Below, piece by piece: positions 17,861 to 41,399 of a stretch of 64,000 bases of DNA. The notes below the pieces were generated by a model. The model saw only the letters and a program-made list of their open reading frames with translations, did not search any database and had not been told where the DNA came from. The translations under genes and the position numbers were made by a program. Position 1 is the first letter of the stretch. Every line of letters begins with the position of its first letter. This stretch comes from Bacillota bacterium (GTDB lineage: Bacteria > Bacillota > Sulfobacillia > RBS10-35 > JAJYVN01), in the NCBI GenBank assembly GCA_021806565.1, contig JAJZXK010000005.1, positions 1 to 64,000 of the forward strand. Reading direction: 5' to 3'.

Positions 17861-19222
17861 TCAGGAGGACCGTCGGCGCAGGTGGAACAACCGGGCCAGG
17901 CCGGCGAGGATCGTCCGCGCGGTCCGCAGGATGATCTGGGCGTCCAGCGCCGCGCTGGACCGTAGCGCGTATAGGGTGTCGAACTTCAGCTTCTCCTGGG
18001 GCAGCGTGTGGTAGTCGCCCTGCACCTGGGCCAGACCGGTCAGACCCGGCAGCACGTGCAAGCGCGTCGCGAAGTGCGGTACGCGCGCCACCGCCGCATC
18101 GTGCAGCGACGGACGTTCGGGACGCGGGCCCACAAGGCTCATCTCGCCGCGCAACACGTTCCACAGTTGCGGCACCTCGTCCAGGTGCAACTGGCGCAGC
18201 CAGCGGCCGACCCGGGTCGCCCGCGGATCGGCCGCCGACGCCAGCACGGGGCCGGTCGCCGCCTCCGCGTCGCGCACCATGGTCCGGATCTTGATCAGCG
18301 TGAACCGCCGGCCGTTGCGGCCGACGCGTTCCTGGCGATAGAGCACGGGCCATCCGTCTTCCGCCGCGACAAGCGCCAGCGCCGGAAGCAGGACGGGCAA
18401 CGTGATCGTCAAGAACAACACACTGAGACTGATGTCGATGAAGCGCTTCAGGATCTGCTGATACCCGCGGCCGCTCGGAGCCACCTCGATGACCAGCCGG
18501 CCGTCCCAGGCGCGGGGCCGGCTCTGCAACAGCAGCAGATCGAGCAGGCGGGGCACCACGAAGAGATCGAGGCCGCCCTCCAACGCCAGCAACGCCACGT
18601 CTTCCTTCAACTGACCCGGCAGGGTCTGATCGAGCAGCAGCCCTGACGCGCGGTGCTCGCGCACCACTTCCCGTGCCGTCGCCACCACCGCGCCCGCCCC
18701 CAGGCCTTCACAATTGAAATCGCCCACCAGCTTGAACGGCATGGTGTCTGCGGCCGCCGCCGCAACGCCGGCCGCCGGCCCGACATGCAGCAGCACGAGG
18801 GCGGGAACGCCGATGACCCGTTCCCAGCGACGGTACAGGACGCGCCGGTAGGCGTACAGGATCAGGAAGGTGTTGACGGCCGCCAGCGCGATGACGCTGC
18901 GCGGCACGCCGAAGCTGCGCACAAAAAACGAGGCCGCCATCGCCACGACGGCGTTGAGGGCCGCCAGCAGAAACAGGCTCTGGACCTGCTCCGGCCAGGG
19001 CGGCTGCCGTTCCTCGTATAGCCCGTATACCTGCGCCAACACGACCGCGGCCAGAACGACCAGCGGCAACGCCCCAAGCAGGGCATGCTCGTTATAGGCG
19101 GGCGGCGTCCCGAGAAAGCGCGTCAGCAGCGCCAGCCCGTAAGCCGCCGCCACCGCCGCGGCGTCGATGAGGATCAACCAGCCGGTCGGCCTTCGCCGAC
19201 GGCCGCCCGGTGCCACGCGCAC
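17861..19222 (-). CDS. Polyprenyl-phosphate sugar-1-phosphate transferase (WbaP/CpsE type initiating transferase)
   Basis: KRFIDISLSVLFLTITLPVLLPALALVAAEDGWPVLYRQERVGRNGRRFTLIKIRTM; LDEVPQLWNVLRGEMSLVGPRPERP. Confidence 0.92.
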   Translation of the reverse strand: MRVAPGGRRRRPTGWLILIDAAAVAAAYGLALLTRFLGTPPAYNEHALLGALPLVVLAAVVLAQVYGLYEERQPPWPEQVQSLFLLAALNAVVAMAASFFVRSFGVPRSVIALAAVNTFLILYAYRRVLYRRWERVIGVPALVLLHVGPAAGVAAAAADTMPFKLVGDFNCEGLGAGAVVATAREVVREHRASGLLLDQTLPGQLKEDVALLALEGGLDLFVVPRLLDLLLLQSRPRAWDGRLVIEVAPSGRGYQQILKRFIDISLSVLFLTITLPVLLPALALVAAEDGWPVLYRQERVGRNGRRFTLIKIRTMVRDAEAATGPVLASAADPRATRVGRWLRQLHLDEVPQLWNVLRGEMSLVGPRPERPSLHDAAVARVPHFATRLHVLPGLTGLAQVQGDYHTLPQEKLKFDTLYALRSSAALDAQIILRTARTILAGLARLFHLRRRSS

Positions 19223-19521
19223 AACCTCCCAACTTCAGCTATCGCTCCACCCACTTGACACTCCGCCCGCCACGACGCGACGCGGATGTCGACAATCCAC
19301 ACCCACATATGGAAGATTCGCCTCGAACCATCGCTGTCCTTTCGTGTGGAAGCCTGGAAGGAGTCTGGGGATGGCCGTAGGCCTTGCCAGGAACGGGCGG
19401 AAGGCCACAGACCGCAACTGTCGAATCCAAGCGGCCGACCCACAAACGTATCGGGGGTGGCGCCCGCTTGGCCCGACCAATCAAATCCAAGCGCCGGCAC
19501 TATGCGGCGTCCGGCCCCTCC

Positions 19522-21906
19522 ATGTGGTCCGAACCCGCGGCCAAGACGGCCGTCACCAAAGAACACACCGTGCTGGTCCTCGGCGCCCTGTTGGGTGTGT
19601 TGCTGGGTGTCTCCGTAACCTTTCGCGGGCTTTATTTCCCGGCGCAGCAACTCGCGGCGGTCGCCGTCGCCTGCGCGGTGGCTGCGGCCGTGGCTGTGGC
19701 CGGCCGGAGGCCGGGCCCGCTGCTGCGGCACCGGCTGGACTGGCTTGCCCTCGGCGTCTCCGCCAGCTACCTGCTCAGCCTGTTCGTCGCGGTCCACCCC
19801 AGCGCGGCCATCCACTCCTGGCTCGTCCACACCATGGACCTGCTGGTGTTCTGGGCCGCCGCCGAACTCGCCCTCCGCTCGGACGCGGCTCGGCAGGCAA
19901 TCCTGCACGGCCTGCTGCTCGGTGGCCTGATCACCGCAGCCACGGGGCTGTTGGGAGCGGCTGGTGTGCAGGGACACGGTTGGTTTGTCACCGACCGCAT
20001 CTTCACATCCATCCAGTATCCCGATGGTGCCGCCGCCTACCTGGCGGCCGTCGCCTTCCTGGCCCTGGGGCTGCGGTTGCGCAGCGGCCAGCCGCGCCTG
20101 CAGTTCGCCTACGCCGGCTTGGCCGCCATCTTGCTGTTCACGTTCGTCTTCGCCCTGTCGCGCGGCGCGGCCCTGGTCTTCCTCCCCGTGGCACTCCTGT
20201 TTGCGCTGATGCAGGAACGGACGCGGCGCCTCGAAGCGGCCGGCTCGATCCTGCTCGCGCTCCTGGCGGTCGCCGTCGGCTCCGTCCCGTACGTCCTGGG
20301 GTTGAAGGCAGCGCACCTCCGGCACGCCCCAGGCGCGGGCCCGGTGCTCACCGCGGTCGCCCTCACGATCGCGACCGCGCTGGCCCTGGAATGGATGCGG
20401 CAGTGGCTCGCAACCCGCGGCTCCCACCTGAACCGGTTCATACCGTTGGGGCTGCGCATCCTCGGCGCGGTCGCCCTCGCGGGCGCGGTGACGATCGCCA
20501 TTGGGTTCCACCACAGCGCCCTGACACGACTCGGACGCATCAGCCTGCACAGCTACAGCGCCTGGTCGCGCATACGCTGGTGGCTGGACGGCCTGCGCAT
20601 GGTCGCGATCCGTCCCATCCTCGGATGGGGCGGCGGTGGCTGGACGGCGGCCTACCACGCCTTCCAGAGCTACGACTACTCCTCCACCCAGGTACACAGT
20701 GGCTGGGTGCAGACGTGGGTCAACACCGGCAGCGTCGGCTTCCTTCTCTGGTGCGCCTTCTGGGTGCTCCTGCTTTTGACCACGCTTACCGCGCTGAGGC
20801 GCGCATCCCGAGATCAACGCCCCGTCCTCGCCGGCCTCGCTGGGCTGGTGGCGATGATCGGCGGCCACGCCTTCTTAGACTTCACCCTTTCGCTCCAGAG
20901 CATCAGCGTGGCCATGTGGGCGGCTTCCGGTATGCTGCGTTCGGCCGCGATGCCGCCCGCCACCGCCCCTGCCCCCGCCCGTCCACGCCAGCGCCACGCG
21001 CCCTCCCCCAGGGAATTCTGGACGCAGATCAGCGTCGGTACGGTGATGGTGGCCCTGATCACCTTCTCCCTCGTGCAACTGACGGCGATCGTCCACCTCG
21101 ACGCGGCCGCCCGCCTGGCCAGGCAGCCCAACCAACTTCCCGCCAGCCAAGTGCAGTTGCATCGCGCCCTCGTCGACGATCCCTGGTCTTCGGCGGTGGC
21201 CTATGACCTCGCCCAGGTGGACGAGACCATGGCCAACCAACTCATGTCCGGCGGCAAGCAGTCGCCCACCGTCGTACAGGGGTATCTGCAGCGCGCCAAC
21301 AACTGGTACCGCAACGCCGTCGCCCTCGACTCATACGACGCGGCGCGCCGCACCGCGTACGCCCAGTTCCTGGGCACGGTCGGACAGGACCCGCAGGCCG
21401 TGCGCGAACTCCAATCCGCCCTCGCCGACGCTCCATACAGCCTCGCGCAGTATTCGGCGCTCTCCACCGGCCTGATCGAGGCGGCGATCCAGGCCGCGCA
21501 TGGGCACCACACTAAGTCGGCCGCCACGTATCTCTCCGACCTGGCAAGCGTCGCTGGCAGCCTCAAGAGCCACAGCGCGGCCATCCCGCCGCGCGCCCTC
21601 GCTGAGAGCAAGGCGCTCCCCTCCGTAGTGCCACCGTTCCCCGCCACCGATCCCGGACTACAGCTTTCCGCTGCCGAAGCCAGCGCACTCAAGGGCCACT
21701 GGACGACCACCGCCCGAGCACTCAAGCCCCTGACCGCGGTCTCCGGGTCCCTGGGAGGCGAGGCCAACCTCTGGCTGGGCGTGGTGGAACAGCACACCAA
21801 GTCCGCGGGAGCAAAGACCCACCTGGCGGCCGCGCAGAAGCTCCTTGGCGCGCAGTATGCGGCACAGCTGAAGCTGGTACAGGGGGCGGTGGGTACGTTG
21901 GGTTAG
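19522..21906 (+). CDS. O-antigen ligase/polymerase-like membrane protein with long C-terminal (TPR-like) domain
   Basis: Multiple TM helices; WaaL-type loop ILGWGGGGWTAAYHAFQSYDYSSTQVHSGWVQTWVNTGSVGF; about 270-aa helical C-terminus. Confidence 0.8.
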   Translation: MWSEPAAKTAVTKEHTVLVLGALLGVLLGVSVTFRGLYFPAQQLAAVAVACAVAAAVAVAGRRPGPLLRHRLDWLALGVSASYLLSLFVAVHPSAAIHSWLVHTMDLLVFWAAAELALRSDAARQAILHGLLLGGLITAATGLLGAAGVQGHGWFVTDRIFTSIQYPDGAAAYLAAVAFLALGLRLRSGQPRLQFAYAGLAAILLFTFVFALSRGAALVFLPVALLFALMQERTRRLEAAGSILLALLAVAVGSVPYVLGLKAAHLRHAPGAGPVLTAVALTIATALALEWMRQWLATRGSHLNRFIPLGLRILGAVALAGAVTIAIGFHHSALTRLGRISLHSYSAWSRIRWWLDGLRMVAIRPILGWGGGGWTAAYHAFQSYDYSSTQVHSGWVQTWVNTGSVGFLLWCAFWVLLLLTTLTALRRASRDQRPVLAGLAGLVAMIGGHAFLDFTLSLQSISVAMWAASGMLRSAAMPPATAPAPARPRQRHAPSPREFWTQISVGTVMVALITFSLVQLTAIVHLDAAARLARQPNQLPASQVQLHRALVDDPWSSAVAYDLAQVDETMANQLMSGGKQSPTVVQGYLQRANNWYRNAVALDSYDAARRTAYAQFLGTVGQDPQAVRELQSALADAPYSLAQYSALSTGLIEAAIQAAHGHHTKSAATYLSDLASVAGSLKSHSAAIPPRALAESKALPSVVPPFPATDPGLQLSAAEASALKGHWTTTARALKPLTAVSGSLGGEANLWLGVVEQHTKSAGAKTHLAAAQKLLGAQYAAQLKLVQGAVGTLG

Positions 21907-22198: not shown

Positions 22199-22460
22199 TT
22201 GCCTTTCATGCGGCGATCGTCGGGCACTGGATTCCGATCGACGTTGAGGTTCATTTGAATACCCGTATGCGCGACGGACGTCCGTCTGCTTCGCGCATCT
22301 GCGGAAGAGTGCCGCAGGATGGCGTTGTTCCGGTGCCGAAGTTGCGTAAGATGTCCCGGCACCCCGTGGAACGCGAACGCTGCTCTGAGCGCATGGACCC
22401 TCCGACACAGCAAGGCACGGGCATGCGCCGCGCAGACGCGCACTGCAGGAGGCGTCGCGG

Positions 22461-23531
22461 TTGTTCTTAGACTCGATCCAGGCGTTGCGGGGATTGGCGT
22501 CAATCTCTGTCCTGCTCTATCACACCAATACATACGCGATACTTATAGGAAACAATGCCCACACGGTGTTCCGGATCTTCTCGCTTCCCTTCTCTTACGG
22601 AGCCTGGTTGTTCTTCGCCCTGTCTGGCTTCCTGATGGCGTCCCTGATAGACAGAGGATACAGGTCCTTTCTACTGCGGCGAGTGTTGAGGATATATCCC
22701 TCCTACCTGATTGCGGGATGCCTCACCCTCTTTGCCAAGGTCCTAGTCTTCGGGTCTGTAAGCAACCCGCTTCTGCTGAAAGCCATAAGCCTTCTCCCTC
22801 TGGGCGCCACAGTTTACCCGCTCGGCGTCGAGTGGACGCTGATCTTCGAGATCTGTTTTTACCTTGTGTGTTCCGCCTTTGCTTGGACATACGGTCGGGT
22901 GGTGTTCCCTTACTTCCTGTGCGCGTGGGCGACAGTCATTGTCTCCGTGCGAGAACTCGCTCCCATCCACTATTCATTGGTGCCGACCATGCGCAACGTC
23001 CTCCTGGAACCCTTCGACCTCCTCTTCATTTTCGGCGGCCTACTGTTCTACCTCGCCAAGCGCGTGGGGTCCCAACCCATGCCGACAAGGCTCGCCGAGG
23101 GTGGGGCGGGACTGGTGATGCTGGTGGTGGCGTGCTTGCAAACAGGAACGTTCGTGCGCTGCATACTGCTCGGCGCTGCCTTCGCGTTGGTGATGCTATC
23201 AACGCTACCGTGGACAGCGACGCCTGGGAATCGATTGCAAGCCGTTCTGTGCCAGCTCGGCGATTACTCGTACGGCATCTATCTGGCTCAGGTACCGGTG
23301 GTTACCATCATTTACGCAGTGGCGATCACCCAGTATCACGCTCGCCTGAGCTCGCTGCTCGCAGTCATGGCGTTTGTGTCCGCCATGATTTTTGGCATAC
23401 TTATGGGCAAGTTAGACATGCATCTTCACGGAAAATCACGGGAATGGGCGAGACGCTGGGAGAGACGACACCCAGCCAGCTCCTCCACCGAAATACCGCC
23501 GACCCCTGCAACAACTCAGGGGATAGTTTAG
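22461..23531 (+). CDS. Acyltransferase 3 family (OafA/NodX-like) membrane protein
   Basis: DSIQALRGLASISVLLYHTN, FALSGFLMASLI, GVEWTLIFEICFY, YSYGIYLAQVPVV; TTG start; lower GC than surroundings. Confidence 0.88.
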   Translation: MFLDSIQALRGLASISVLLYHTNTYAILIGNNAHTVFRIFSLPFSYGAWLFFALSGFLMASLIDRGYRSFLLRRVLRIYPSYLIAGCLTLFAKVLVFGSVSNPLLLKAISLLPLGATVYPLGVEWTLIFEICFYLVCSAFAWTYGRVVFPYFLCAWATVIVSVRELAPIHYSLVPTMRNVLLEPFDLLFIFGGLLFYLAKRVGSQPMPTRLAEGGAGLVMLVVACLQTGTFVRCILLGAAFALVMLSTLPWTATPGNRLQAVLCQLGDYSYGIYLAQVPVVTIIYAVAITQYHARLSSLLAVMAFVSAMIFGILMGKLDMHLHGKSREWARRWERRHPASSSTEIPPTPATTQGIV

Positions 23532-24128
23532 CGACTTGCGCGAGTCGCCGATAACCAGGACATCCGTCGTCCACGGTCCGTCTTGGGCACATTGGTCTCG
23601 AAGCGGTGGAACGTGCGGCTGGGCGTCACCGTCAGACGACGTGTCTTGCCCAGGTGCTGTAGGTGCAGCGCGCGGCGTGCTGCGGGCCCGTTGCTGGCCT
23701 GTGCCTGCTCCTCCCGCGCCGACATGGGCCCAGAGTCCTTTCCGGCACCTATTGGTCCCTCATCGGTGCCCGCGCCGTCCTGGCCTTACGCGCCATCGCC
23801 CTCTCCCCGCTTCGGTGCTGGGAGGCTTCTTGCGCAACTCGCCGCGCGTTGGCCGGACCCGCTTCCCGCCACCTCACTGGGCTCAGGGGCAAGGCCGCCT
23901 GATCTCCACATTTGAGGGATGCACCGGCACGAGCAGGGAAAAACAGGTGTGGTGGCGATGCTCACGGCCGTACCGGCGAACCCACCGGGTGGGGGCCGCC
24001 ACCCAGTGGCCGGCGCCCCCCGTCCGATGCCGTCAGCGTCACCGGTTCGACATGCACCCACCACGACAGTAAAGATCAGGAAGCATCACGGTCGCGACCT
24101 GCCCAAGGCACAACGCCGGGTAGCGCAG

Positions 24129-25376
24129 TCACACTCCCCCCACCTCGACGCGGCGGTCGCCCCGCATCGCCACCGCCGTGTCGACGCGGATCTCGCAGCC
24201 GACGTTGGCGGTTCCCTTCCATGTCCGGTCGCGCCGCACCTCGAAGGTGATGCCACGGTCGATCCAGTCATAGAACTCGCGCGCGTTGGTGTGGGCAGCG
24301 GCGACGGTCACGTAGTGGCGGCCGGCCGGCAGCGTGCAGCGGAAGCGGTATTCCACCTCCACGTCATACCCGGGCTCCAGCACCCCCGTATCGATGCCGC
24401 GCCACATGGTGTTGGTGTCATAGGTCAACTGCGGCGTTTCCTCGTCGGTGTGCATGATGATGCCGAAGATCGGTGCCTCGACGCGTTCATGCACCTGGTA
24501 GCGGACGCGCAGGATGGCGTCCTGCCCAGCCCAGAGGGCGTCCACTTCCTCGCCCTTGCCGTCCAGGAGTTCCACCTTGGACACCTCGATCTCAAAGGTG
24601 CCGTATCGGCGCCCCTCGACCGCCTGCTTCTCCGTGGTCCGGCCCTCGGCCCCAAGGCTGCTCACCGCGTACGACGGCACCACATCGTGCGCAGGGCCGC
24701 TCTCGCGCACCACGCCCTGGTCGAGCCAGACCACCCGGTCACACAGCTCCTGCACGGCGCCGAGATCGTGGGACACCAACAGGATCGCCTTTTTCGCGTG
24801 CTTGATCTGGCGGATGCGCTCGAAACACTTGGTCTGAAAGCCCGCGTCCCCGACGCTGAGCACCTCGTCCAGGACGAGGATGTCCGGGTCCACATGCACG
24901 GCGACCGCGAAGGCCAGCCGCATGAACATCCCCGAGGAATAGTGCTTCACCGGCATGGACATGTAGTCGGCCAGACCGGCAAACGCCACGATGTCCGCAT
25001 ACAGCCCCTGCACGCGCCGCCGGCTCATGCCCAGCAGGCCCGCATTTAGGAAGACGTTCTCCTTGCCCGTGTACTCCGGGTGGAAGCCGGCACCCAGTTC
25101 CAGCAGCGCCACCATCCGGCCGTCCGCCTTGACCCGGCCGCGGGTGGGCCCGAGGATGCCCGCCACCACCTTCAGCAGGGTGCTCTTGCCCGAACCATTG
25201 CTGCCGACGATGCCGACCATTTCGCCGGGGCGCACCTCGAAGGACACATCGCGCAGCACCCAACTCTCCCGCCGCGGCCGGCGCCCGAGTTGCAGCACGT
25301 AGTCCTTCAGGGCGAGGGTGCGGTCCTCCGGACGGTAGAAGCGTTTGGCGACGTTTTCGACCACCAGGCCTGCCAT
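24129..25376 (-). CDS. wzt: Polysaccharide ABC transporter ATP-binding protein with C-terminal carbohydrate-binding (Wzt-type) domain
   Basis: Walker A GSNGSGKST, signature YSSGMFMRLAFA, Walker B ILVLDEV; C-terminal Wzt_C-like domain. Confidence 0.9.
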   Translation of the reverse strand: MAGLVVENVAKRFYRPEDRTLALKDYVLQLGRRPRRESWVLRDVSFEVRPGEMVGIVGSNGSGKSTLLKVVAGILGPTRGRVKADGRMVALLELGAGFHPEYTGKENVFLNAGLLGMSRRRVQGLYADIVAFAGLADYMSMPVKHYSSGMFMRLAFAVAVHVDPDILVLDEVLSVGDAGFQTKCFERIRQIKHAKKAILLVSHDLGAVQELCDRVVWLDQGVVRESGPAHDVVPSYAVSSLGAEGRTTEKQAVEGRRYGTFEIEVSKVELLDGKGEEVDALWAGQDAILRVRYQVHERVEAPIFGIIMHTDEETPQLTYDTNTMWRGIDTGVLEPGYDVEVEYRFRCTLPAGRHYVTVAAAHTNAREFYDWIDRGITFEVRRDRTWKGTANVGCEIRVDTAVAMRGDRRVEVGGV

Positions 25377-25378
25377 CC

Positions 25379-26149
25379 CTAAATCACCTCGGCCGCATCA
25401 CGACTGAGTCGGTTGAACAAGAGCCATCCCAGGGCGAAGACCACGATGCTCTCGGCACTGGTGAGCCAGACGACGCCGGACCCCGGCCAACGCCCCCAAT
25501 AGAGAATCGCGGTGAAGGCGTGAAACCAGACGGTGAGCGGGTTGAGCAACAGCAACCCGCGATACTTCACCGGAACCAGGTGCAGCGGATAGACGATCGG
25601 GGTCAGATAGAACCATGCGGCGAGCACCACCCCGATCAGGTGCTCCAGGTCCCGGAAGTGGACGACCAATCCGGCCAGCGCGAAACTCAAGCCGCAACTC
25701 CACAGGAACAGCGAGATCAGCAGCGGCACCATCGCCAGAACCTGCGGGCCAAGGGGCACCTTGACCTGCAGCACCAGAACGAGCACGATGAACGCTCCGT
25801 AGCTCAGGAACAGGTTGATGAGATTAGCGATCACGCTGGCCCCGGGGAGCAGAACCTTCGGAAACGCCACCTTCTTGACCAGCCCGGCGTTGGCCAGCAG
25901 CGATTGCATGCCGGTCGGCAGCGCCATGGAAAAGAACGTCCAGGGCAGCAAACCGATCAGCAAGAACAGCGGGTAGCGTGGGATACCAATCTGCATGATC
26001 GTTGAAAACACCGTCGTATACACAAGCATCAGCAGCAGGGGGTTTAGCATGGACCACAGGAAACCGAGGAACGAGTTGCGATAGCGAATCGCCAGTTCCT
26101 TCATCGCGAGGCGCAGCAGCGTTTCGCGAAAGCGCCACACGTCAGTCAT
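25379..26149 (-). CDS. wzm: Polysaccharide ABC transporter permease (Wzm/TagG type)
   Basis: LAMKELAIRYRNSFLGFLWSMLNPLLLMLVYTTVF. Confidence 0.9.
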   Translation of the reverse strand: MTDVWRFRETLLRLAMKELAIRYRNSFLGFLWSMLNPLLLMLVYTTVFSTIMQIGIPRYPLFLLIGLLPWTFFSMALPTGMQSLLANAGLVKKVAFPKVLLPGASVIANLINLFLSYGAFIVLVLVLQVKVPLGPQVLAMVPLLISLFLWSCGLSFALAGLVVHFRDLEHLIGVVLAAWFYLTPIVYPLHLVPVKYRGLLLLNPLTVWFHAFTAILYWGRWPGSGVVWLTSAESIVVFALGWLLFNRLSRDAAEVI

Positions 26150-29100
26150 ACTGCATCCCACCCGACTCCACCATCTGGAGGAAGAGGTCGCCGTAAGCAC
26201 GCACCATCTCCGTCAGGCAAAACTTCTGCAACCGCCCCCGGCCGGACGCGGCGCGGGCCCGGGCCGCGTCCGGATCCCGAAGCACCCGCAGCATGGCGTC
26301 GGCCAGGGCGGTGGGATCCTGCGGCGCGACCAACAGCCCGTCCACCTCCCGCCGCACCATCTCAGGAATCCCGAAGACATCCGTGGAGACCAGGGGCAAC
26401 TCGAACGCGAACGCCTCCAACACCACCGCCGGCAGTGATTCCTCCAGCGAGGCGCAGACGAATCCGTCGGCCGCCCGGTAGTATGGATAGACATCGGGCG
26501 TCTCGTCCACCACCCGGAAACGCGACGGGTCGGGGCTGGCGGCGATGGCCTGGCGCACCTCGGCCAGGTACGGCGACTCGCGCGCCCCCACGATCCAGAA
26601 CTCGCAGTCCCGCCCCTCACGGCGCGACAGCGCCTGCGCGGCGGCCTGGACGAAATACAGTTGACCCTTGCGCGGCGCGGTCGTACCGACGATCAGCCAG
26701 ACGAAGCGGCCCTCCGCGGCGCCCAGCGCCTGCCGTGCCTGCGCCCTGGAGGTTCCCGCGCAAAAGCGCTCCACGCGGGCCACATCCAGGCCGTTCGGGA
26801 CGGTGATCAAGCGAAACGGCCGTCCGACGGCCTCGGTGAAGATGCGCCGGGTGGCATCGGCCACGAACACCACGCGATCGGCCGAATCCAGGGCGTCCAG
26901 GGCCAGTTCGTAGGTGAACCCAGGCAATTGCCGGAAATACTCCCGCGGATCAACACTTTCATGAATGCTCCACACGCTGGGCAGGCCCGCCGCCCTCGCC
27001 GCCAACACCGCCCAATACCCGTGCAGCGTGTTGGCGTGGACCACATCCACGCCCGCCCCGCGCCACTCCTCGCCCAGACGGCCAAACCGCTCCCGCAGCA
27101 TGGCGGCGTTGGTGGCGCCGACCAGCGGGTGGGAAAAGATCCGCGGCGTGATACCGGCCGCCGCATAGCGCCGCTGCAGCGGGCCCTCCTGCGGGGACAG
27201 CACGTCGCACGCCCAGCCGGCAGCCGCCAACTCCTTGGCGATATTGTACTGGAACAGTGGAGCCCCTTCGACGTTGAGGTTGTGGCCGATCAGCGCGACG
27301 TGCGCCGGCCGCCGCCACACCGGCGGATCCAGATGGCCGGCTTGGATCTCGAACAGGTCGCTGTCCTGACGCAGGTTCTCGTTGTCGTAGGGGTCGCGGC
27401 GGCCGCTCACCCACATCTCCTCGAAGGCGGCCTCCTCGCGCGGATCGTCGCGGTAGCCGCGGCTGATGCCCTCGTGGTGCAGCAGTGCCGCATCCGGCTG
27501 ATACACCACCCGCAAGCCGCGTTCGCACACCCGCAGGCAGTAGTCCACGTCGTTGTACGCGACGGCGAAACGGGCCTCGTCGAATCCACCCAGTTCCTCA
27601 AAGAGCCCGCGCCGGGTGAGCAGGCAGGCCGCAGTCACCGCGCTGTAGTTGCGCATCACCTGGGCAAAGCTCAGGTAGCCGCCATAGTCCCCACCCGCCA
27701 GGCGGAAGGCATGGCGGGCCAGGCCGCGCGCGCCGCCGCCCAGCAGGACGCCGGCGTGCTGGATCCGGCGGTCGGGGTACAGGAGCTTGGCGCCCACCGC
27801 GCCGACCTCGGGATTCTGCAGGACGCCCACCATCGCCCGCAGCCAACGTGGTTCCAGCGCCTCGGTGTCGTCGTTGAGGAAGAGCAGGTACTCGCCGGAG
27901 GCGTGCGCCGCGGCCTGGTTATTGACATAGGCGAAGCTGAAGCGACCACTTTCCGGGTGCGCGATGCGCAGCACCTTGTGCTTCAGCCCTGCCAGGTAGT
28001 CGACCGTGCGCGGCTCGTCGCTGAGGTTGTCGGCGACGATGATCTCATAGTTCGAATAGTCGGTATGCTCCTGAAGGCTCTCGATGCACCGCTCCAGGAA
28101 CCGGCCGTTGTGGGTCGGGATAATGATGGACACCAGCGGCTCCGGGATCCCGGCGTAGTCGATGCGGAAGATGCCCAACCCCGCCTCACGGGCAAAGCGC
28201 GGCTGGGTCACCTCCCCCCGCAGGCCCCGGCGTACGAGGGCTTCGGAGACGGCCCGCCGCCCCGTCTCCAGGCTGTAGGACTTGGCCGAGGTCGACGCCG
28301 CGGTGGACTGCGGTAAGGCCCGCCAGTGGTAGAGGATACGCGGGATGTGCACCACCCGCGGCGACCGCTCCGCCGCCCGCAGGAGCAGGTCATAGTCCTG
28401 TGAACCCTCAAACCCCTCGCGGAAACCCTCCAAGCTGCGGAAGAGTTCCGTGCGCATCAAGAGCAGGTGGCTGATGTAGCTGTACGACAGCAGCAGTTCC
28501 GGGCTCCAGTCCGGCTTGAACTGGGGGGCGTAGCGCCCGCCGTTGGCGTCCACCTTGTCGTCGTCTGAGTAATAGAGGTCGGCACGCGACTGCTGCATCT
28601 CGCGCACCATCACCTGCAGGGCGTCGAGGGTCAGTTCGTCGTCGTGGTCGAGAAAGGCCAAATACTCCCCGCTGGCCGCGGCCGCGGCGGCGTTGATCGC
28701 GCGGGAGATGTGGTGTGGGGTGTCCAGCAGGACGAGCCGGAAGCGTTCGGCCCCGAGCCGCTCCGCATACTCCCGCAGCACCGGCCGCACGTGCTCCGCC
28801 GTGGAGCAGTCGTCAGCGACGCACAACTCCCACTGATCGTATGTCTGATCGACCACCGAGTCCAGGCAGCTACGCAGCCACTGTTCCCCGACGTTGTGCA
28901 CCGCGACCACGACGCTGATCCGAGGTGTGACCGTAAAAGCGGACCGTTCGGCCACCAGCGCCCGCCGCTTGGCGGACGTCAGCACGTGGCCGCGCAGCCA
29001 CTCCCCATAGGCGTCATACGCCGCAAGCTGCCGCGCCGCCACAGCGTCCGAAGCAAGCCCGGCGCGCCAAAAGCGCCAGGCGCTGCGGACCAGCTTGGGC

Positions 29101-30896
29101 CAGGCGCGCGGGTTACGCGGAATCCTGCCCTGGCGGGCGTAGTCCAGCCCGACGCGCAGGGTACCGCGCAGGCTGCGGACGGCCCGTAGCGGCAGCAGCG
29201 GCCGCGGCACAAAGGCGACGGTACCGATCAGCACCCGACGCCGACCGACTTCCGCGACCACCTCCACGCGTCGTGCCCAGCGCGGCACGAGGTGTGCACC
29301 GAACCGCGCCCGGAAGCCGGAGGCCAGCGCCGCCGGCAACGGGTGGGCCGTATACACGTCCGGCCGCTGCAGCCCCTGTTCCGCGACCGCCACCACCCGA
29401 CCGGACCAGCGCACGGTGATGCGGTCCAGCGGGGCGAATGGGCAGAAGGCCCAGCCACTTACCACCAACTCGCCGTGGCGCCGTACCGCCCCGGCGGGCT
29501 CCTCGACCTGCCCGATCACCTGGACCGGCAGGCCCGACGCCATCCGCACCGCCGGCGCCGGATTGGCTGGCGCGGGATTGGGCGGGGCTCCCGCGAGTTG
29601 GAGATTGCGAACCGCGTCCTCGATGGCGCTCGCCAGCCCGTCCCAGCGATTTGCCCCGCCCGCCGGCAACAGGGCCGTCAGGGACGCCAGGGACGCGCGC
29701 AGTTCTTCCAGGTGCCCGACCAAACCCCGCAACTGCTCGGCGACGCCGGCGGCCTGCGCGCCCTCGCGCACCAGGGTGTCCACCGTCTCCTGGGCGCGGA
29801 GCGCCTGGGCCTCCCTTTCCTGCAGCAGGGTGCGCTGGCGCTCCGCCTCCGCCTCCATGGCGCGGATGCGCTCGCGTGCCTCCCGCAACTCCGCCTCGCG
29901 CAGTTCGCGTACCGCCGCGGCGGCCGCGAGGTCCCGGCGCAGGCCCTCCACCGCATCGCGCGCCTGACCCGCTTCCACCTCGCCGCGCTCGATGTGCTCC
30001 CGAGCCGCCGCCACCTGGCCTTGCAGGTCCGCGATGGCGGAGCGCGCCCGCTCCAACTCCACGTCCTTGTCCTGGATCGTGCCTGCCGCCTCACGCAGTT
30101 CGGCGTCCTTGGCCGCGATCGTCGCGCGCGCCAGGGCAAGTTCCTCGTCCTTGGCCGCGATGGTCGCACGCGCCACGACGAGTTCCGATGCCTCGGTGTC
30201 CAGGAGTTCGTGTGGATCGAGCCACCAGGAGCGCGCCTGCAGGTCCGGCAGGGGCCCGTCGCCACAAAGCCCGAGCAGATACACGGGCGGAACGTCGTCC
30301 AGTGCCCCGGCGGGCAGGTCGGCCGGTCCGTCCGGGCCATCCTGGCTCCAAATCGCCGACAGACGCACGATCCGCTGGCCATGAAGGCGGATGTGCTTGA
30401 AGTGCGCCGCCAGCGCGGCGAGGAACTCCTGGCGGTCGGCCTCGTTGCGGTGAAAGGGGTTTTGATAGCCGCGCGCCTCGCTGTAGATGGCGCGATTGGG
30501 AGTCGAAACCAACAGCAACCCGCCCGGACGCAGCAAGCGGTGCGCCTCGGCCAGCAGGGCTCCGGGGTCCTCCAGGTGTTCATAGATCTCGAACGCCACG
30601 ACCAGGTCGGCGCTCGCGTCGGCAAGCCCGGTCCGGGTCGCGTCAGCGACCAGGAAGCTGAGTTGGGGGGCGGCGTACCGCACCCGCGCCGCCGCGACCG
30701 CCTCGGCCGAAAGATCGACGGCCCGCACCGAGCGCGCCACCAGACTGAGGCGGTGCGCACCATACCCCTCGCCGCAGCCGAGGTCCACAACATCCCGGCC
30801 GTCCGCCAGCCGCTGGGCCAGTGCATAGCGGTGCAGGTGCTCATACTGGGTCTCGCGCAGCCCGGCGCCGGGCACGTATCGTTCCTGCTCCTCCAC
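26142..30896 (-). CDS. 1584-aa multidomain SAM-methyltransferase + coiled-coil + GT2 modules + GT4 glycosyltransferase (WsaE-like)
   Basis: N-term VVDLGCGEGYGAHRLS; coiled coil; two GT2-type motifs PRISVVVAVHNVGEQWLRSCLDSV and PLVSIIIPTHNGRFLERCIESL; C-term GT4 HVALIGHNLNVEGAPLFQYNIAKELAAAGW...LPAVVLEAFAFELPLVSTDVFGIPEMV. Confidence 0.9.
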   Translation of the reverse strand: MEEQERYVPGAGLRETQYEHLHRYALAQRLADGRDVVDLGCGEGYGAHRLSLVARSVRAVDLSAEAVAAARVRYAAPQLSFLVADATRTGLADASADLVVAFEIYEHLEDPGALLAEAHRLLRPGGLLLVSTPNRAIYSEARGYQNPFHRNEADRQEFLAALAAHFKHIRLHGQRIVRLSAIWSQDGPDGPADLPAGALDDVPPVYLLGLCGDGPLPDLQARSWWLDPHELLDTEASELVVARATIAAKDEELALARATIAAKDAELREAAGTIQDKDVELERARSAIADLQGQVAAAREHIERGEVEAGQARDAVEGLRRDLAAAAAVRELREAELREARERIRAMEAEAERQRTLLQEREAQALRAQETVDTLVREGAQAAGVAEQLRGLVGHLEELRASLASLTALLPAGGANRWDGLASAIEDAVRNLQLAGAPPNPAPANPAPAVRMASGLPVQVIGQVEEPAGAVRRHGELVVSGWAFCPFAPLDRITVRWSGRVVAVAEQGLQRPDVYTAHPLPAALASGFRARFGAHLVPRWARRVEVVAEVGRRRVLIGTVAFVPRPLLPLRAVRSLRGTLRVGLDYARQGRIPRNPRAWPKLVRSAWRFWRAGLASDAVAARQLAAYDAYGEWLRGHVLTSAKRRALVAERSAFTVTPRISVVVAVHNVGEQWLRSCLDSVVDQTYDQWELCVADDCSTAEHVRPVLREYAERLGAERFRLVLLDTPHHISRAINAAAAAASGEYLAFLDHDDELTLDALQVMVREMQQSRADLYYSDDDKVDANGGRYAPQFKPDWSPELLLSYSYISHLLLMRTELFRSLEGFREGFEGSQDYDLLLRAAERSPRVVHIPRILYHWRALPQSTAASTSAKSYSLETGRRAVSEALVRRGLRGEVTQPRFAREAGLGIFRIDYAGIPEPLVSIIIPTHNGRFLERCIESLQEHTDYSNYEIIVADNLSDEPRTVDYLAGLKHKVLRIAHPESGRFSFAYVNNQAAAHASGEYLLFLNDDTEALEPRWLRAMVGVLQNPEVGAVGAKLLYPDRRIQHAGVLLGGGARGLARHAFRLAGGDYGGYLSFAQVMRNYSAVTAACLLTRRGLFEELGGFDEARFAVAYNDVDYCLRVCERGLRVVYQPDAALLHHEGISRGYRDDPREEAAFEEMWVSGRRDPYDNENLRQDSDLFEIQAGHLDPPVWRRPAHVALIGHNLNVEGAPLFQYNIAKELAAAGWACDVLSPQEGPLQRRYAAAGITPRIFSHPLVGATNAAMLRERFGRLGEEWRGAGVDVVHANTLHGYWAVLAARAAGLPSVWSIHESVDPREYFRQLPGFTYELALDALDSADRVVFVADATRRIFTEAVGRPFRLITVPNGLDVARVERFCAGTSRAQARQALGAAEGRFVWLIVGTTAPRKGQLYFVQAAAQALSRREGRDCEFWIVGARESPYLAEVRQAIAASPDPSRFRVVDETPDVYPYYRAADGFVCASLEESLPAVVLEAFAFELPLVSTDVFGIPEMVRREVDGLLVAPQDPTALADAMLRVLRDPDAARARAASGRGRLQKFCLTEMVRAYGDLFLQMVESGGMQYD
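30103..30186 (-). repeat. Imperfect 42-bp tandem repeat (2 units) in coiled-coil coding region
   Basis: Units 30103-30144 and 30145-30186 encode ARATIAAKDEEL / ARATIAAKDAEL. Confidence 0.8.
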
Positions 30897-30916: not shown

Positions 30917-31894
30917 CTAGCGGGTGAGGGCCTTTTGCGCCCAGCGACCAGCAAAGCAGGGTTCGTCACACATCGAGCGCAGCCTGCACCAGCCGACGCT
31001 TTCCAGGTCTCGCCGCCGCTTGCGCCAACACCGGCCGAGGCCGGCGAGCGCTGCCGATTTGGCCGAGAGGAAGGTGCGCAGCCGGCCGTGGCGCAGGAAA
31101 AAAACCGCGGCCCCACATTCATACAGCAGATGCCCGGGCAGGCAGGTGAGCAGGGCGTTGCGCGGCAGGGCGCGCAGGTAGGCCCACTCCAGATTGCGCT
31201 GCCCGTACCAGACGTAAAACTCGGAGAGCCGCCCGATGCTGCTGGAACCATGGTGGTACACGACCGCCGCGGGCGCCAGCACGCAGCGGGCGCCCGCGCG
31301 CGCCGCCCGGAGGTTGAGGTCCGAGTCCTCGTGGATGCAGAACAGGTCTTCATCGAAACCGCCCAGACGCGCAAACCACTGCCGCTCGACCACCATGGCG
31401 CACCCGGGTGCGCCCAGCACCATCTGGGGTTCCGCCGGCACCGCGTCGGCGGATGTGCCCTGGCGGCGGTGCACGGGGATGCCGCAGCGGGTCCAGGTGT
31501 CCCCCAGGCTCTCCACCCGGTCCGGGTGGGCGATGGAACGCACCTGGCTGGCGACCATGTCCGCCGGCAGGGCGGCGCGGATCTGGGCCAACCAGTCTTC
31601 GGCCAGCACCACATCGGGATTGAGAAAGGCCAGATGGGTACCCGTGGCCTGGCGGGCACCCAGGTTGCAGGCCGCGGCGAAGCCGAGGTTGTGGGGACTG
31701 GCCGTCAACCGCACGGCAAGCGGGACCCGCCGCACGGCGGGAACGCTCCCGTCGGTCGAGGCGCTGTCCACCACCACCACCTCGTCAAAGGCCACCGATT
31801 GGCGGCGCAGCGACTCCAGACAGTCGCCGACGGTTGCCTCGCTCTGATGGGTGACGATCACGGCCGACACCCGTAGCGCATCGTCCCCCGCCAC
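30917..31894 (-). CDS. GT2-family glycosyltransferase (rhamnosyltransferase-like)
   Basis: RVSAVIVTHQSEATVGDCLESLRRQ, VVVDSASTDGS, HNLGFAAACNLG. Confidence 0.9.
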   Translation of the reverse strand: MAGDDALRVSAVIVTHQSEATVGDCLESLRRQSVAFDEVVVVDSASTDGSVPAVRRVPLAVRLTASPHNLGFAAACNLGARQATGTHLAFLNPDVVLAEDWLAQIRAALPADMVASQVRSIAHPDRVESLGDTWTRCGIPVHRRQGTSADAVPAEPQMVLGAPGCAMVVERQWFARLGGFDEDLFCIHEDSDLNLRAARAGARCVLAPAAVVYHHGSSSIGRLSEFYVWYGQRNLEWAYLRALPRNALLTCLPGHLLYECGAAVFFLRHGRLRTFLSAKSAALAGLGRCWRKRRRDLESVGWCRLRSMCDEPCFAGRWAQKALTR

Positions 31895-31945: not shown

Positions 31946-32887
31946 TCAGCCCGCGCGCCCGGCCGGGCGCCCCGGCCGCACCAGCGTAGGTACCACGGTC
32001 AGCACCCCGTACGCCGCGATCCCCAACCAGACGCAGGCGCTCCACACCGGGCCGTACCGGCGGGCGAGGTGCTTGCGGTAAAAAAGCCACATTGCGTGCG
32101 CAAACGCATACCTGGACCGCCAGCCGCCCTTGCGCGTGCTGCCGCCCTTGAAGTGCAGCACCCGTCCGACCGGCGCATACCAGACCTGCCAGCCCGCGTG
32201 CTTGGCGCGCCAGCACCAATCGAGCTCCTCGCCGAAGAGAAAGAACGATTCGTCCAAGCCACCGATGGCCTCAGCCACCTGGCGCCGCGCCATCAGGCAG
32301 GCGCCGGAGACCGCGTCGACCTGTGCCGGGGCGTCGACCGGCAGGTCGGCGGCGTTGTAGCGGGCAAAGCGGGCCGCAAGCGGACCGCCCCGCCACCGGC
32401 TCCAGCGCGCAACCCCGGTCAGGGTCCAGAAGGCGTCCAGGGGGCTGGGGATGCGCCGCCGGCAGGCCCGCTGCAGGGAGCCGTCCGGGTTTACGACCGC
32501 CGGGCCGGCGATCCCGGCCTGGGGATGCGCCCGCAAGAAGTCCACCAATCCGGATACGGTCCGCGCATCGCAGACCGTATCCGGATTGAGCAGCAACAGA
32601 TAGCGGCCCAGCGCCTCGCGGATGCCGAGGTTATTCGCCGCCGCAAAGCCCAGGTTGCGCCCCGGACGGATGAGCCGCACCGCCGGCCAATCCCGCGCCA
32701 GATACGCCGCCGTCCCATCGCTGGAGTCGTTATCCACCACGATGACCTCGCCGGCCGCCGCGACGGCCGCCAAGCATCCAGGCAGGTATTCGCGGCAGTT
32801 CCAGGCCACCACGATGACGCTGACCTCTGGGCCCACGGCACGCCCAGCCGCCTCCGCGTCCCGCCCGCTCCCTTTCCCGCTTGCCAT
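31946..32887 (-). CDS. GT2-family glycosyltransferase
   Basis: EVSVIVVAWNCREYLPGCLAAV, VVDNDSSDGTAAY, RNLGFAAANNLGIREA, FFLFGEELDWCWR. Confidence 0.9.
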   Translation of the reverse strand: MASGKGSGRDAEAAGRAVGPEVSVIVVAWNCREYLPGCLAAVAAAGEVIVVDNDSSDGTAAYLARDWPAVRLIRPGRNLGFAAANNLGIREALGRYLLLLNPDTVCDARTVSGLVDFLRAHPQAGIAGPAVVNPDGSLQRACRRRIPSPLDAFWTLTGVARWSRWRGGPLAARFARYNAADLPVDAPAQVDAVSGACLMARRQVAEAIGGLDESFFLFGEELDWCWRAKHAGWQVWYAPVGRVLHFKGGSTRKGGWRSRYAFAHAMWLFYRKHLARRYGPVWSACVWLGIAAYGVLTVVPTLVRPGRPAGRAG

Positions 32888-32895
32888 GGCTTGGC

Positions 32896-33351
32896 CTACC
32901 GGGCCTTCGTGGTCCAGTCGAACCCGATGGCCGGATCGTCGAAGGCGAGGCGCTTTTCATCCGGATCCTTGGGGTTGTACGACTCGGTGGTGAAATACAC
33001 GATGGCGGCCGGCTCGTTGCCCAGCACCCGGTAGCCATGGGCGACGCCTTTGGGTATCAGCACCAGAACGGGGTTTTCCTCTCCCATATACACGACCTGT
33101 GTCTGGCCCTGCGTCGGCGATCCGGGGCGGAGATCGTGCAGTACCGTCTGAGCGTTGCCCCGGGGAAAAAACCACAGATCGTCCTGCCGCTCATGATAAT
33201 GAAAAGCCTTGATCACTCCAGGATAGCTGAGGGAGAAGGACGCCTGGCCGAAGCGGCGCAGCAACGCGTCATCGTCGCGCAAGATCTCCATGAAGTAACC
33301 GCGGTCGTCCGGATGCCGCACCAAGCGCTTCACCACGACACCGTCGATCAT
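32896..33351 (-). CDS. rfbC: dTDP-4-dehydrorhamnose 3,5-epimerase-like cupin protein (short RmlC-like)
   Basis: GVIKAFHYHERQDDLWFFPRGNAQTVLHDLR, IPKGVAHGYRVLG, ESYNPKDPDEKRLAFDDPAIGFDW; in rml cluster. Confidence 0.78.
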   Translation of the reverse strand: MIDGVVVKRLVRHPDDRGYFMEILRDDDALLRRFGQASFSLSYPGVIKAFHYHERQDDLWFFPRGNAQTVLHDLRPGSPTQGQTQVVYMGEENPVLVLIPKGVAHGYRVLGNEPAAIVYFTTESYNPKDPDEKRLAFDDPAIGFDWTTKAR

Positions 33352-34211
33352 GCCTGCCGCCCGCCTCCTGTTGCGTCCAAATCCCGAAGCACCTCGGCCA
33401 GCGCGTCCTTCCAAGGCCGCGGCTCGATACCCGTCGCCGCCGTAAAGGCGTCCGTGCTCAGCACCGAATAGGCGGGGCGCCGCGCCGGCCGCGGAAACTC
33501 CGCCGTCGATACCGGCAGGACACGGGCGGCGAGGCCGGCCTGCGCGACGATCTCCCTGGCAAAGCCATACCACGTGCACTCGCCGGCGTTGCAGGCGTGA
33601 ACGGTCCCGACCGCACCCCGGTCGGCGAGGGCCCAAATCCACGCCGCGAGGTCATCGGCACAGGTCGGCCGCCCACGCTGGTCGTCGACCACCCGCAACT
33701 CGGGCCGCTCGGCCGCCAGGCGGAGGATCGTGCGCACGAAGTTGCGGCCGCGCGCGGCGAAGACCCAGGAGGTGCGCACGATGGTGTGGTCCCGCGGCAG
33801 CAGGGTGCGCACGGCCAACTCGCCGCCCAGCTTGCTTGCGCCGTAGGCCGATGTGGGTTGCAGCGGGTCGCCCGGCTCATACGGCCGGGAGGCGTCGCCG
33901 GCAAAGACGTAATCCGTGCTCACATAGATCAGGCGCGCACCGATGGCCGCACAGACCCGCGCCAGGTTGGCCGTTCCCTCGGCGTTGACCCGCCAGGCCC
34001 GCTGCCGGTCATCCTCACAGCCATCCACGTCCGTGTAGGCACCGGCATGCACGACCAGCGCCGGACGCACCCGCTCCACAGCCCGCGCCACGGCCTGCGG
34101 ATCACCGACGTCCAGGTCCTGGCGGCCCAGGGCCTCGACCGTCCCCGGCGCGCCCGCCGCGAGCGCCACCCCGAGTTGACCCTCGCCACCCGTGATCAAA
34201 TACTCAGCCAC
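33348..34211 (-). CDS. rfbD: dTDP-4-dehydrorhamnose reductase
   Basis: YLITGGEGQLGVAL, YVSTDYVFAGD, YGASKLGGE; GTG start. Confidence 0.92.
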   Translation of the reverse strand: MAEYLITGGEGQLGVALAAGAPGTVEALGRQDLDVGDPQAVARAVERVRPALVVHAGAYTDVDGCEDDRQRAWRVNAEGTANLARVCAAIGARLIYVSTDYVFAGDASRPYEPGDPLQPTSAYGASKLGGELAVRTLLPRDHTIVRTSWVFAARGRNFVRTILRLAAERPELRVVDDQRGRPTCADDLAAWIWALADRGAVGTVHACNAGECTWYGFAREIVAQAGLAARVLPVSTAEFPRPARRPAYSVLSTDAFTAATGIEPRPWKDALAEVLRDLDATGGGRQA

Positions 34212-35217
34212 CAGCGTCGGCCCCGACGCCGCCGTACTGCCGCCGGATGTAGGCCTGATACTCCGGTCCCAGAAGCGGCCGCCACCATCCGGGATGGTCG
34301 CGATACCAGCGCACCGTCTCCGCCAGTCCCGTCTCCAGGTCGGTCCGCGGAACCCAGTCGAGTTCGGACCGGCTGCGGCCGGCATCCACCGCGTAGCGGA
34401 AGTCGTGGCCGGGCCGGTCCGCGACAAACCGAACCAGATCCGCTGGGGCACCCGTCAAGCGCAGGATGGCGCGCACCATCTCCAAATTGGTCCGCTCCGC
34501 GCCGCCGCCGAAATTATAGACGCGGCCGGGCCGCCCGTGGCGCAACGCCGCCAGGATGCCGCGGCAGTGGTCCTCGACGTGGATCCAGTCGCGCACGTTG
34601 CGACCGTCCCCATACACCGGCACCGGCTCTCCCGCCAGGGCGCGCACGATCGTCAGCGGGATGAGCTTTTCTGGGAACTGGTAGGGACCGTAGTTGTTGC
34701 TGCAGCGCGTCACCACCACCGGCAGTCCGTGGGTCGTGTGGTGGGCGAGTGCGAGCAGGTCCGCCGCGGCCTTGCTCGCCGCATACGGGCTGCGCGGCGC
34801 CGGCGGGGAATCCTCGGTGAACTGCCCGCTTTCCCCAAGGGAGCCGTAGACCTCATCGGTCGAAACCTGGACGAAGCGTTCCACCCCTGCCGCGCGCGCG
34901 GTGTCCAGCAGGACCTGGGTGCCGATGACGTTGGTCTCCAAAAAGCCGCGGGCGTCGCGGATGCTGCGGTCCACGTGGCTCTCTGCCGCCAGGTGCAGCA
35001 CCGCCTGGGCGCCGGCCAGTGCGTCGGCCATGAGCCCGGCGTCGCGGATGTCTGCCCGCACGAAGCGGACCCGGTCGCCCAGCCCGTCGAGGTTGGCGGG
35101 ATTACCGGCATAGGTGAGGGCGTCCAGGGCGACGAGTTCATCCTCACCCTCAGCGCACAGCAGGCGGACCAGGTTGCTACCGATAAACCCCGCGGCGCCG
35201 GTGACCACGATCCTCAT
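34204..35217 (-). CDS. rfbB: dTDP-glucose 4,6-dehydratase
   Basis: MRIVVTGAAGFIGSNLVR, AAESHVDRSI, VSTDEVYGSL, YAASKAAAD, RCSNNYGPYQFPEKLIP. Confidence 0.95.
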   Translation of the reverse strand: MRIVVTGAAGFIGSNLVRLLCAEGEDELVALDALTYAGNPANLDGLGDRVRFVRADIRDAGLMADALAGAQAVLHLAAESHVDRSIRDARGFLETNVIGTQVLLDTARAAGVERFVQVSTDEVYGSLGESGQFTEDSPPAPRSPYAASKAAADLLALAHHTTHGLPVVVTRCSNNYGPYQFPEKLIPLTIVRALAGEPVPVYGDGRNVRDWIHVEDHCRGILAALRHGRPGRVYNFGGGAERTNLEMVRAILRLTGAPADLVRFVADRPGHDFRYAVDAGRSRSELDWVPRTDLETGLAETVRWYRDHPGWWRPLLGPEYQAYIRRQYGGVGADAGG

Positions 35218-35987
35218 GCCCGCACCCCCGCCGGAGTGCGGCCAGCCGGCATCCCGCCGGCCGGCAACTCCAATGCCAAGCGATTGGCCAACTGCAGGGA
35301 CGCGATCGTGCCCGCGTCGGTCCACCAGCCGGGCAGGATGTCGTAGTGCAGCGACTCTTCGGCGATGTACCGGTTATTGACATCCGAGATCTCCAACTCG
35401 CCACGGGCCGACGGCTGGAGGTCGCGGATGAACTCGAACACCCGCGCGTCATACATGTAGATACCGGTGACGCACAGGTCGCTGCGCGGCCGCGCCGGCT
35501 TCTCCTCGATGCCGACGATGCGGCCGTCGCGGACCTCGGCCACCCCGAAGCGCTGCGGGTCGTTCACCGACTTGAGCAACAGGCGCGCCCCAGCCGGCTG
35601 GGCGCGGAAGCCGTCCACAAACGGGGTGATGTCCGCCTCAAAGATGTTGTCCCCGAGAAGAACCACCGTGCTGCCGCCGCCGGCGAACGCTTCGGCGAGT
35701 GCCAGGGCCTGCGCGATCCCGCCCGGTTCGTCCTGGACCCGATAGGTAAAACGGGCCCCCCAGTCACGACCGCTGCCCAGCAGGTTGACCACGTCGCCCA
35801 TGTGCTCGAGGCCGGTCACCACCAGCACATCGGTGATCCCCGCCGCCACCAGCTTGGCGATCGGATAGTAGATCATCGGGTAGCCTCCGACCGGCAGCAG
35901 GTGCTTGTTGGTCACCTTCGTCAGCGGATACAGGCGCGATCCCGTGCCACCGGCCAGCACGACCCCGGACAGCCGCCCCTCCACCAC
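35214..35987 (-). CDS. rfbA: Glucose-1-phosphate thymidylyltransferase
   Basis: GVVLAGGTGSRLYPLTKVTNKHLLPVGGYPMIYYPI, LGDNIFE, ELEISDVNNRYI. Confidence 0.92.
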   Translation of the reverse strand: MVEGRLSGVVLAGGTGSRLYPLTKVTNKHLLPVGGYPMIYYPIAKLVAAGITDVLVVTGLEHMGDVVNLLGSGRDWGARFTYRVQDEPGGIAQALALAEAFAGGGSTVVLLGDNIFEADITPFVDGFRAQPAGARLLLKSVNDPQRFGVAEVRDGRIVGIEEKPARPRSDLCVTGIYMYDARVFEFIRDLQPSARGELEISDVNNRYIAEESLHYDILPGWWTDAGTIASLQLANRLALELPAGGMPAGRTPAGVRA

Positions 35988-36608: not shown

Positions 36609-36745
36609 GTATCCACCTCGCGACCGTGCTAGCCCAGCCCCCCGCTCCGGGGGATGCGGCCGCAAACAGCCTCCGTTTTCGGTGAAGCACACGGAGCCTC
36701 CTGCGAACCACAGGTGGACGATTGTGGACCCGTCGACGCGGATCG

Positions 36746-37741: not shown

Positions 37742-37887
37742 CGCCGCACCCCTCCCGACCCGGGAGCCGGGCGGGAAGATTGGCAGCGCGTGGTCCGACT
37801 CCTGCCGCCACAGCCGCCGCCCACCGTTTTTCCTCGCACCATGATACCCTGGCGGCAACGCCGTGGACCGGCGCGGGGGGGAAAGCG

Positions 37888-39063: not shown

Positions 39064-39133
39064 GGGCGGCCCGCGAACACAGGGCGAAGCGAATGGGGTG
39101 CGCCGGCACGGCCGTTCGGACGGCCGGGGGCGG

Positions 39134-41332: not shown

Positions 41333-41399
41333 CACCCGCCGCCATATCCATGAGGATACCCGCGGCACCCCGCGGGCATCCTCCGCACCCGCAGCATCC

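Follow-up and report, generated by a model that had tools for sequence, protein, structure and literature searches.

A predicted 1584-residue protein joining a methyltransferase, a coiled coil and three glycosyltransferase modules in a Bacillota bacterium: a candidate polymerase and terminator with a built-in ruler

A 64,000-nt stretch of Bacillota bacterium assembly GCA_021806565.1 (GTDB lineage Bacillota; Sulfobacillia; contig JAJZXK010000005.1, positions 1 to 64,000), here called the window, was analysed around one long open reading frame (ORF) on its minus strand. The host assembly comprises 4.0 Mb in 213 contigs, with completeness estimated at 92.6%; the ORF lies on contig C88. It starts at a GTG codon, has no internal stops and occupies an open frame of 1607 codons. 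Its features, including an S-adenosyl methionine (SAM) methyltransferase and glycosyltransferase (GT) modules, were as follows (the method of assignment is in brackets).

26142..30896, minus strand: whole fusion ORF, 1584 aa (methyltransferase, coiled coil, beta-sandwich, GT2, GT2, GT4)
30438..30842, minus strand: SAM methyltransferase domain, residues ~19-153, with motif D38-x-G-x-G-x-G44 (Pfam, sequence, Foldseek)
29667..30215, minus strand: coiled coil, residues ~228-410, opening with 14-residue units in register (heptad score, AlphaFold)
30097..30187, minus strand: 42-bp tandem repeat, 2.2 copies, equal to two heptads at the coil start (not significant against a codon-resampled null)
29211..29471, minus strand: beta-sandwich, residues ~476-562 (AlphaFold)
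28212..28916, minus strand: first GT2 module (GT-A), residues 661 to ~895 (Pfam, alignment, AlphaFold)
27327..28133, minus strand: second GT2 module (GT-A), residues 922 to ~1190 (Pfam, alignment, AlphaFold)
26145..27311, minus strand: GT4 module (GT-B), residues 1196-1584, EX7E at E1486/E1494 (Pfam, alignment, AlphaFold, Foldseek)

By analogy with characterised systems, we consider it fairly probable that the fusion ORF encodes a three-module glycan polymerase and a methyl terminator with a coiled-coil ruler between them, acting in an S-layer (slg-type) or cell-wall pathway that depends on an ATP-binding cassette (ABC) transporter.

The N-terminal region matched Methyltransf_11 (residues 37-129, E 1.1e-21) and Methyltransf_23 (19-153) in Pfam, and class I methyltransferases in Foldseek. 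Glycos_transf_2 was matched in two stretches (best 661-793; second GT2 922-1140), followed by Glyco_transf_4 (1215-1374) and Glycos_transf_1 (1384-1549), and the C-terminal part matched GT4 enzymes in Foldseek, for example MshA, BshA, PglA and HepE. Residues 455-1584, modelled by AlphaFold with relatives, gave a mean predicted local distance difference test score (pLDDT) of 87.7 and resolved into a beta-sandwich, two GT-A-type modules and one GT-B-type module. Residues 1-640 gave a mean pLDDT of 67.9, with the methyltransferase and the coil as the only reliable parts. A preliminary description of the ORF had read a methyltransferase, a long heptad-rich coiled coil, two GT2 modules and a full GT4 from a 1584-aa frame, giving no strand; Pfam and AlphaFold bore out each of these modules, and the list proved incomplete, having missed the beta-sandwich. 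The latter, modelled with confidence, is a possible carbohydrate-binding domain.

Inactive catalytic motifs, an objection foreseen in that description, were not found. Across the GT region, 164 columns were at least 90% conserved in an alignment of 49 rows (1 of which was dependent on the family-building step, the same set having defined the profiles). Acidic active-site positions were kept in the first GT2 (D695, D696, D750, D752, D753 and D834) and in the second (D1010, D1116 and D1118), and the EX7E motif of the GT4 (E1486-x7-E1494) was conserved in 49/49 rows. The window protein differs from the family at ~12 other conserved GT columns of the same alignment; a 39-row alignment agreed with it. 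With the methyltransferase motif read directly from the sequence, the conserved catalytic motifs of both the GT and the methyltransferase modules are, at the level of sequence, intact.

The coil was assessed with a hand-made heptad score and composition-matched shuffles. Residues 241-410 scored 0.375, against a shuffled mean of 0.259 (standard deviation 0.019, maximum 0.329, 1000 shuffles), and a 3.5-residue hydrophobic periodicity was exceeded in 3 of 1000 permutations. AlphaFold placed helices at residues 228-303 and 309-409, mostly with confidence (pLDDT ~85-91 at residues 250-360), and the in-register 14-residue units span residues 236-291. At 0.1485 nm per residue, the ~170-180 residues of coil would extend an estimated 25-27 nm. 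The methyltransferase (~19-153) precedes the helices (228-409) at the distal end of an extended coil, as a terminator-type domain would. The DNA repeat at the coil start was not significant, 145 of 2000 codon resamples scoring equally high.

The genes around the fusion ORF were as follows.

25379..26149, minus strand: wzm, ABC-2 permease; its ATG at 26149 overlaps the fusion ORF stop by 8 nt
24129..25376, minus strand: wzt, ABC ATPase with a Wzt_C domain (profile match)
30917..31894, minus strand: stand-alone GT2, candidate adaptor transferase, upstream of the fusion ORF
31946..32887, minus strand: stand-alone GT2, candidate adaptor transferase, upstream of the fusion ORF
32896..35987, minus strand: deoxythymidine diphosphate (dTDP)-rhamnose genes (RmlC-like, RmlD-like, RmlB-like, RmlA-like), upstream of the fusion ORF
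19384..21906, plus strand: Wzy_C O-antigen-ligase-type protein whose C-terminal region is long; candidate for transfer to protein or wall
17861..19222, minus strand: Bac_transf (WbaP/WsaP-type) initiating sugar-phosphate transferase

The fusion ORF is therefore linked to a Wzm/Wzt pair whose ATPase has a C-terminal glycan-binding domain, and the window holds the gene content of an slg-type locus (wzm, wzt, rml, initiator and Wzy_C ligase), the last two several kb away, on the opposite side of the fusion ORF from the rml genes. Three further regions were noted: genes for a GNAT acetyltransferase and a D-Ala-D-Ala-ligase-like ATP-grasp protein, next to the rml genes on their upstream side (36012-37909, minus strand); a 411-aa ORF between the ligase and wzt that matched no family and may not be a gene (22319-23554, plus strand); and a 1119-aa ORF of odd composition, matching nothing in Pfam, that probably shadows a real gene (37992-41351, minus strand).

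The host genome gave one Spo0A_C match and 45 SLH matches above cut-off, and no match to LpxC or Omp85 at its 92.6% completeness. From these markers the host appears to be a spore-forming, monoderm, S-layer bacterium. Because Spo0A and SLH are present and LpxC and Omp85 absent, an S-layer (WsaE-type) or cell-wall glycan is the more likely product, and a lipopolysaccharide O antigen is unlikely.

Four known systems were compared. WsaE of Geobacillus stearothermophilus NRS 2004/3a, which acts on an S-layer rhamnan, likewise has an N-terminal methyltransferase and two GT domains (PMC2943079), and its locus resembles the window in its overlapping wzm/wzt neighbours, rml genes, WsaP-type initiator, Wzy_C ligase and Gram-positive S-layer host; in the slg clusters of Geobacillus and Paenibacillus a multidomain GT/methyltransferase has wzm and wzt as neighbours, and rml genes, an initiator of WsaP type and a ligase of WsaB type are also present (PMC2943079). 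The window chain differs from WsaE in additionally having the long coiled coil, the beta-sandwich and a GT4. In Geobacillus the third GT, the GT4-like WsaF, is a separate protein, whereas all three GTs share one chain here. WsaF has proline for the first glutamate of EX7E and the window GT4 has the canonical motif; membership of the WsaF type was rejected on this ground and because none of the 60 PDB matches listed was a WsaF chain. Because the WsaF signature is absent, the likeness of the window GT4 to WsaF is one of role, not of membership.

ORF6 of Klebsiella pneumoniae O7 shares an N-terminal methyltransferase, a coiled coil and two C-terminal GT2 modules, together with an immunoglobulin (Ig)-like domain, and its locus holds wzm/wzt and dTDP-rhamnose genes (PMC11231755). 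It differs in having a kinase (methylphosphate cap) and in placing the Ig-like domain before the coil; the window protein has no kinase, a beta-sandwich after the coil, and a GT4. WbbB (K. pneumoniae O12 / Raoultella terrigena) joins polymerase, terminator and coiled-coil ruler in one polypeptide (PMC11231755, PMC9587256), but with a beta-3-deoxy-D-manno-oct-2-ulosonic acid (Kdo) cap (GT99) and a GT102/GT103 polymerase rather than a methyltransferase and GT2/GT4-type enzymes; the window N-terminal domain is a class I methyltransferase and not a GT99. In WbdD/WbdA of E. coli O9a the methyltransferase again sits at the far end of the coil, at ~200 Å for WbdD and ~25 nm as estimated here (PMC11231755, PMC5082667); WbdD, however, has a kinase and no polymerase, WbdA being a separate protein. 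According to PMC5082667, the WbdD coil keeps terminator and polymerase ~200 Å apart, and coil insertions raise and truncations lower the modal O-antigen length. In the K. pneumoniae O12 and O7 proteins the terminator lies at the distal end of the coil and the polymerase modules at the other (PMC11231755), and terminator proteins are characterised by a coil between methyltransferase and polymerase (PMC11231755). The window protein has the layout of these WbdD, O12 and O7 terminator systems, and by that analogy its coil could be a length factor. The preliminary description had proposed a one-polypeptide polymerase and terminator with a possible molecular ruler. The idea fits the architecture and the WbdD, WbbB and ORF6-O7 precedents (PMC11231755; PMC5082667), but it is not new in kind: the principle was already set by WbbB (Klebsiella O12), ORF6-O7, WbdD and WsaE, and with WbbB a known one-chain polymerase/terminator with a coiled-coil ruler, the window protein is a new arrangement of known O-antigen and S-layer parts.

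One-chain relatives in which methyltransferase, coil, GT2, GT2 and GT4 follow one another as in the window protein were found in Mastigocoleus testarum, Cohnella zeiphila and Paenibacillus alkalitolerans, all recorded strains (isolates) with domains confirmed by Pfam; the distribution of the architecture had been suggested for checking. In the Cohnella and Paenibacillus loci L029 and L037 the fused ORF is accompanied by wzm/wzt and rml genes, and an initiator (L029) or a Wzy_C relative (L037) is close by; initiator or Wzy_C relatives were also found in L088. Nitrospira and Paenibacillus oryzae have two consecutive ORFs, one with methyltransferase and coil and, right after it, one with GT2-GT2-GT4 (L010, L013, L036, L088). 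These have the modules and order of the window protein and lie near wzm/wzt, but are two genes rather than one, with other coil lengths (~36 residues in Nitrospira-type loci, ~150 in P. oryzae). Adjacent split genes of this kind were observed in L010, L013, L015, L027, L036, L045 and L088. Over aligned rows, the window methyltransferase was 30-35% identical to the unfused Nitrospira and P. oryzae forms and 17-22% to the other fused forms. No close full-length orthologue was found among 60 relatives of the host; a search of 200 genomes sampled from the phylum, with residues 1-696 as query, yielded partial matches only, and no plasmid record covered 80% of the query.

In the proposed pathway, the WbaP/WsaP-like enzyme would load the first sugar on a lipid carrier and the two stand-alone GT2s would add an adaptor. 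The GT2, GT2 and GT4 modules would then add up to three linkages per repeat, with dTDP-rhamnose probably used, by analogy with rml-linked systems, for at least part of the chain. The methyltransferase, ~25 nm away on the coil, would methylate the non-reducing end once the chain reached it and so stop growth; coil length would therefore bias chain length. Wzt_C would bind the capped end, Wzm/Wzt would export the chain, and the Wzy_C ligase would transfer it to a surface protein or the wall.

Several findings weigh against this pathway. The likeness to WsaE is one of domain layout and locus content, and the window GT4 is unlike WsaF. Methylation by WsaE is independent of chain length in vitro (PMC2943079), so that the methyltransferase might decorate rather than terminate. 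No kinase of the WbdD/ORF6-O7 type was matched by Pfam or AlphaFold, ~75 residues lying between methyltransferase and coil. The coil is Ala/Arg-rich with some Gly. For about half of the related cores no Wzm/Wzt was found nearby, though many of those contigs are short, and the initiator and ligase genes lie >4 kb from the fusion ORF across unassigned sequence, for which reason their link to it is by analogy.

The last of these points also serves the reading, which we regard as less likely, that the product is a capsule, an exopolysaccharide or a secondary cell-wall polymer and not a glycan of S-layer proteins, with the nearby initiator and Wzy_C genes serving another pathway: the ligase is moreover on the other strand, and Wzm/Wzt export is common to many types of glycan (PMC11231755). 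Against it, the gene content matches slg loci (PMC2943079), related Paenibacillaceae loci hold the same gene types, and the genome encodes many SLH proteins. It is less probable still that the methyltransferase methylates sugars within the repeat, with the coil oligomerising the enzyme or scaffolding it with partners and chain length set elsewhere. The lack of a kinase domain would suit such a decorating enzyme, as would coil lengths that vary widely among relatives, some GT2-GT2-GT4 proteins showing none; the placing of the coil between methyltransferase and polymerase (the terminator hallmark), the Wzt_C domain of the neighbouring wzt, which suggests recognition of a modified chain end, and the different capping-type domains at the same N-terminal place in relatives all argue for termination. 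That two adjacent genes were joined by an assembly or sequencing error, as the two-ORF arrangement in Nitrospira and P. oryzae and the 213-contig assembly might suggest and as the preliminary description had considered, is very unlikely, since the fusion recurs in isolate genomes from Cohnella, Paenibacillus and Mastigocoleus and the window ORF is one open frame.

The C-terminal GT4 had been described as an addition; it is no oddity, GT2-GT2-GT4 being a common chassis in at least 10 phyla. Wzm and/or Wzt accompanied the GT core in 42 of 81 loci within the stretch fetched. Sulfotransferase-like N-terminal domains were found on the chassis above the Pfam cut-off in L032 (7107-8555) and L049 (7111-9036) and below it in L016 (5641-8565) and L033 (1329-2816), and possibly form sulfate caps; other N-terminal domains were Methyltransf_24 (L021) and an extra GT2 (L023, L040). 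Larger relatives were also seen, with a second GT4 in L043 (2682-9299) and a methyltransferase after the GT4 in L019 (6381-12356) and L020 (6747-12368). Scored with an in-house profile, under which fusions to unrecognised methyltransferases counted as unfused (L021: Methyltransf_24), the presence of a fused methyltransferase required 6 changes, by gain or loss, on a maximum-likelihood tree of 50 cores, equal to the number forced by supported branches.

Family coils, counting those of 60 residues or more, reach a length of 442 residues. In their DNA, 26 of 28 tandem repeats of 18 nt or more had a period divisible by 21 nt, which suggests whole-heptad duplications in the relatives' coils. The repeat-bearing coils included those of L055 (7887-8936), L025 (5178-7217), L047 (4977-12095), L020 (4346-5986) and L085 (2674-6837). 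Periods ranged from 21 to 147 nt, and some repeats were 98-100% matched. At a match of at least 85%, a cut picked after a first look at the repeats, they occurred in 11 of 41 family coils, against a codon-resampled mean of 1.3 (maximum 4); without the cut, 16 coils had heptad-multiple repeats against a mean of 11.5 and a maximum of 15 (50 replicates), a small excess. By synonymous-codon resampling, much of the signal is thus due to the heptad protein sequence itself. Control coiled coils carried such repeats in 1 of 7 and 1 of 15 cases (Fisher p 0.15 against the second set alone); with so few control coils, heptad-multiple repeats are not established as special to ruler coils. Of 60 indels of at least 5 residues that separate related N-terminal regions, 27 had a length divisible by 7, the pairs not being independent.

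We put forward only tentatively that these proteins form a modular family, in which a conserved GT2-GT2-GT4 polymerase has repeatedly been joined, in many phyla, through a coil ruler to interchangeable caps such as methyltransferases, sulfotransferase-like domains and extra GTs, the ruler growing in whole-heptad steps by tandem duplication. If so, glycan length would be an evolvable, quantised trait. Gram-positive S-layer glycans, for which methylation by WsaE, showing no length dependence in vitro (PMC2943079), did not explain how length is set, would then have a length factor of the kind apparently missing from WsaE. WbbB, the characterised enzyme with polymerase and terminator in one chain, belongs to O-antigen synthesis in Gram-negative bacteria; with a three-GT, methyl-cap counterpart in an apparent S-layer monoderm, the ruler mechanism would reach S-layer or cell-wall glycans as well, for which the fused, split and cap-swapped relatives offer a natural series of coil-length variants.
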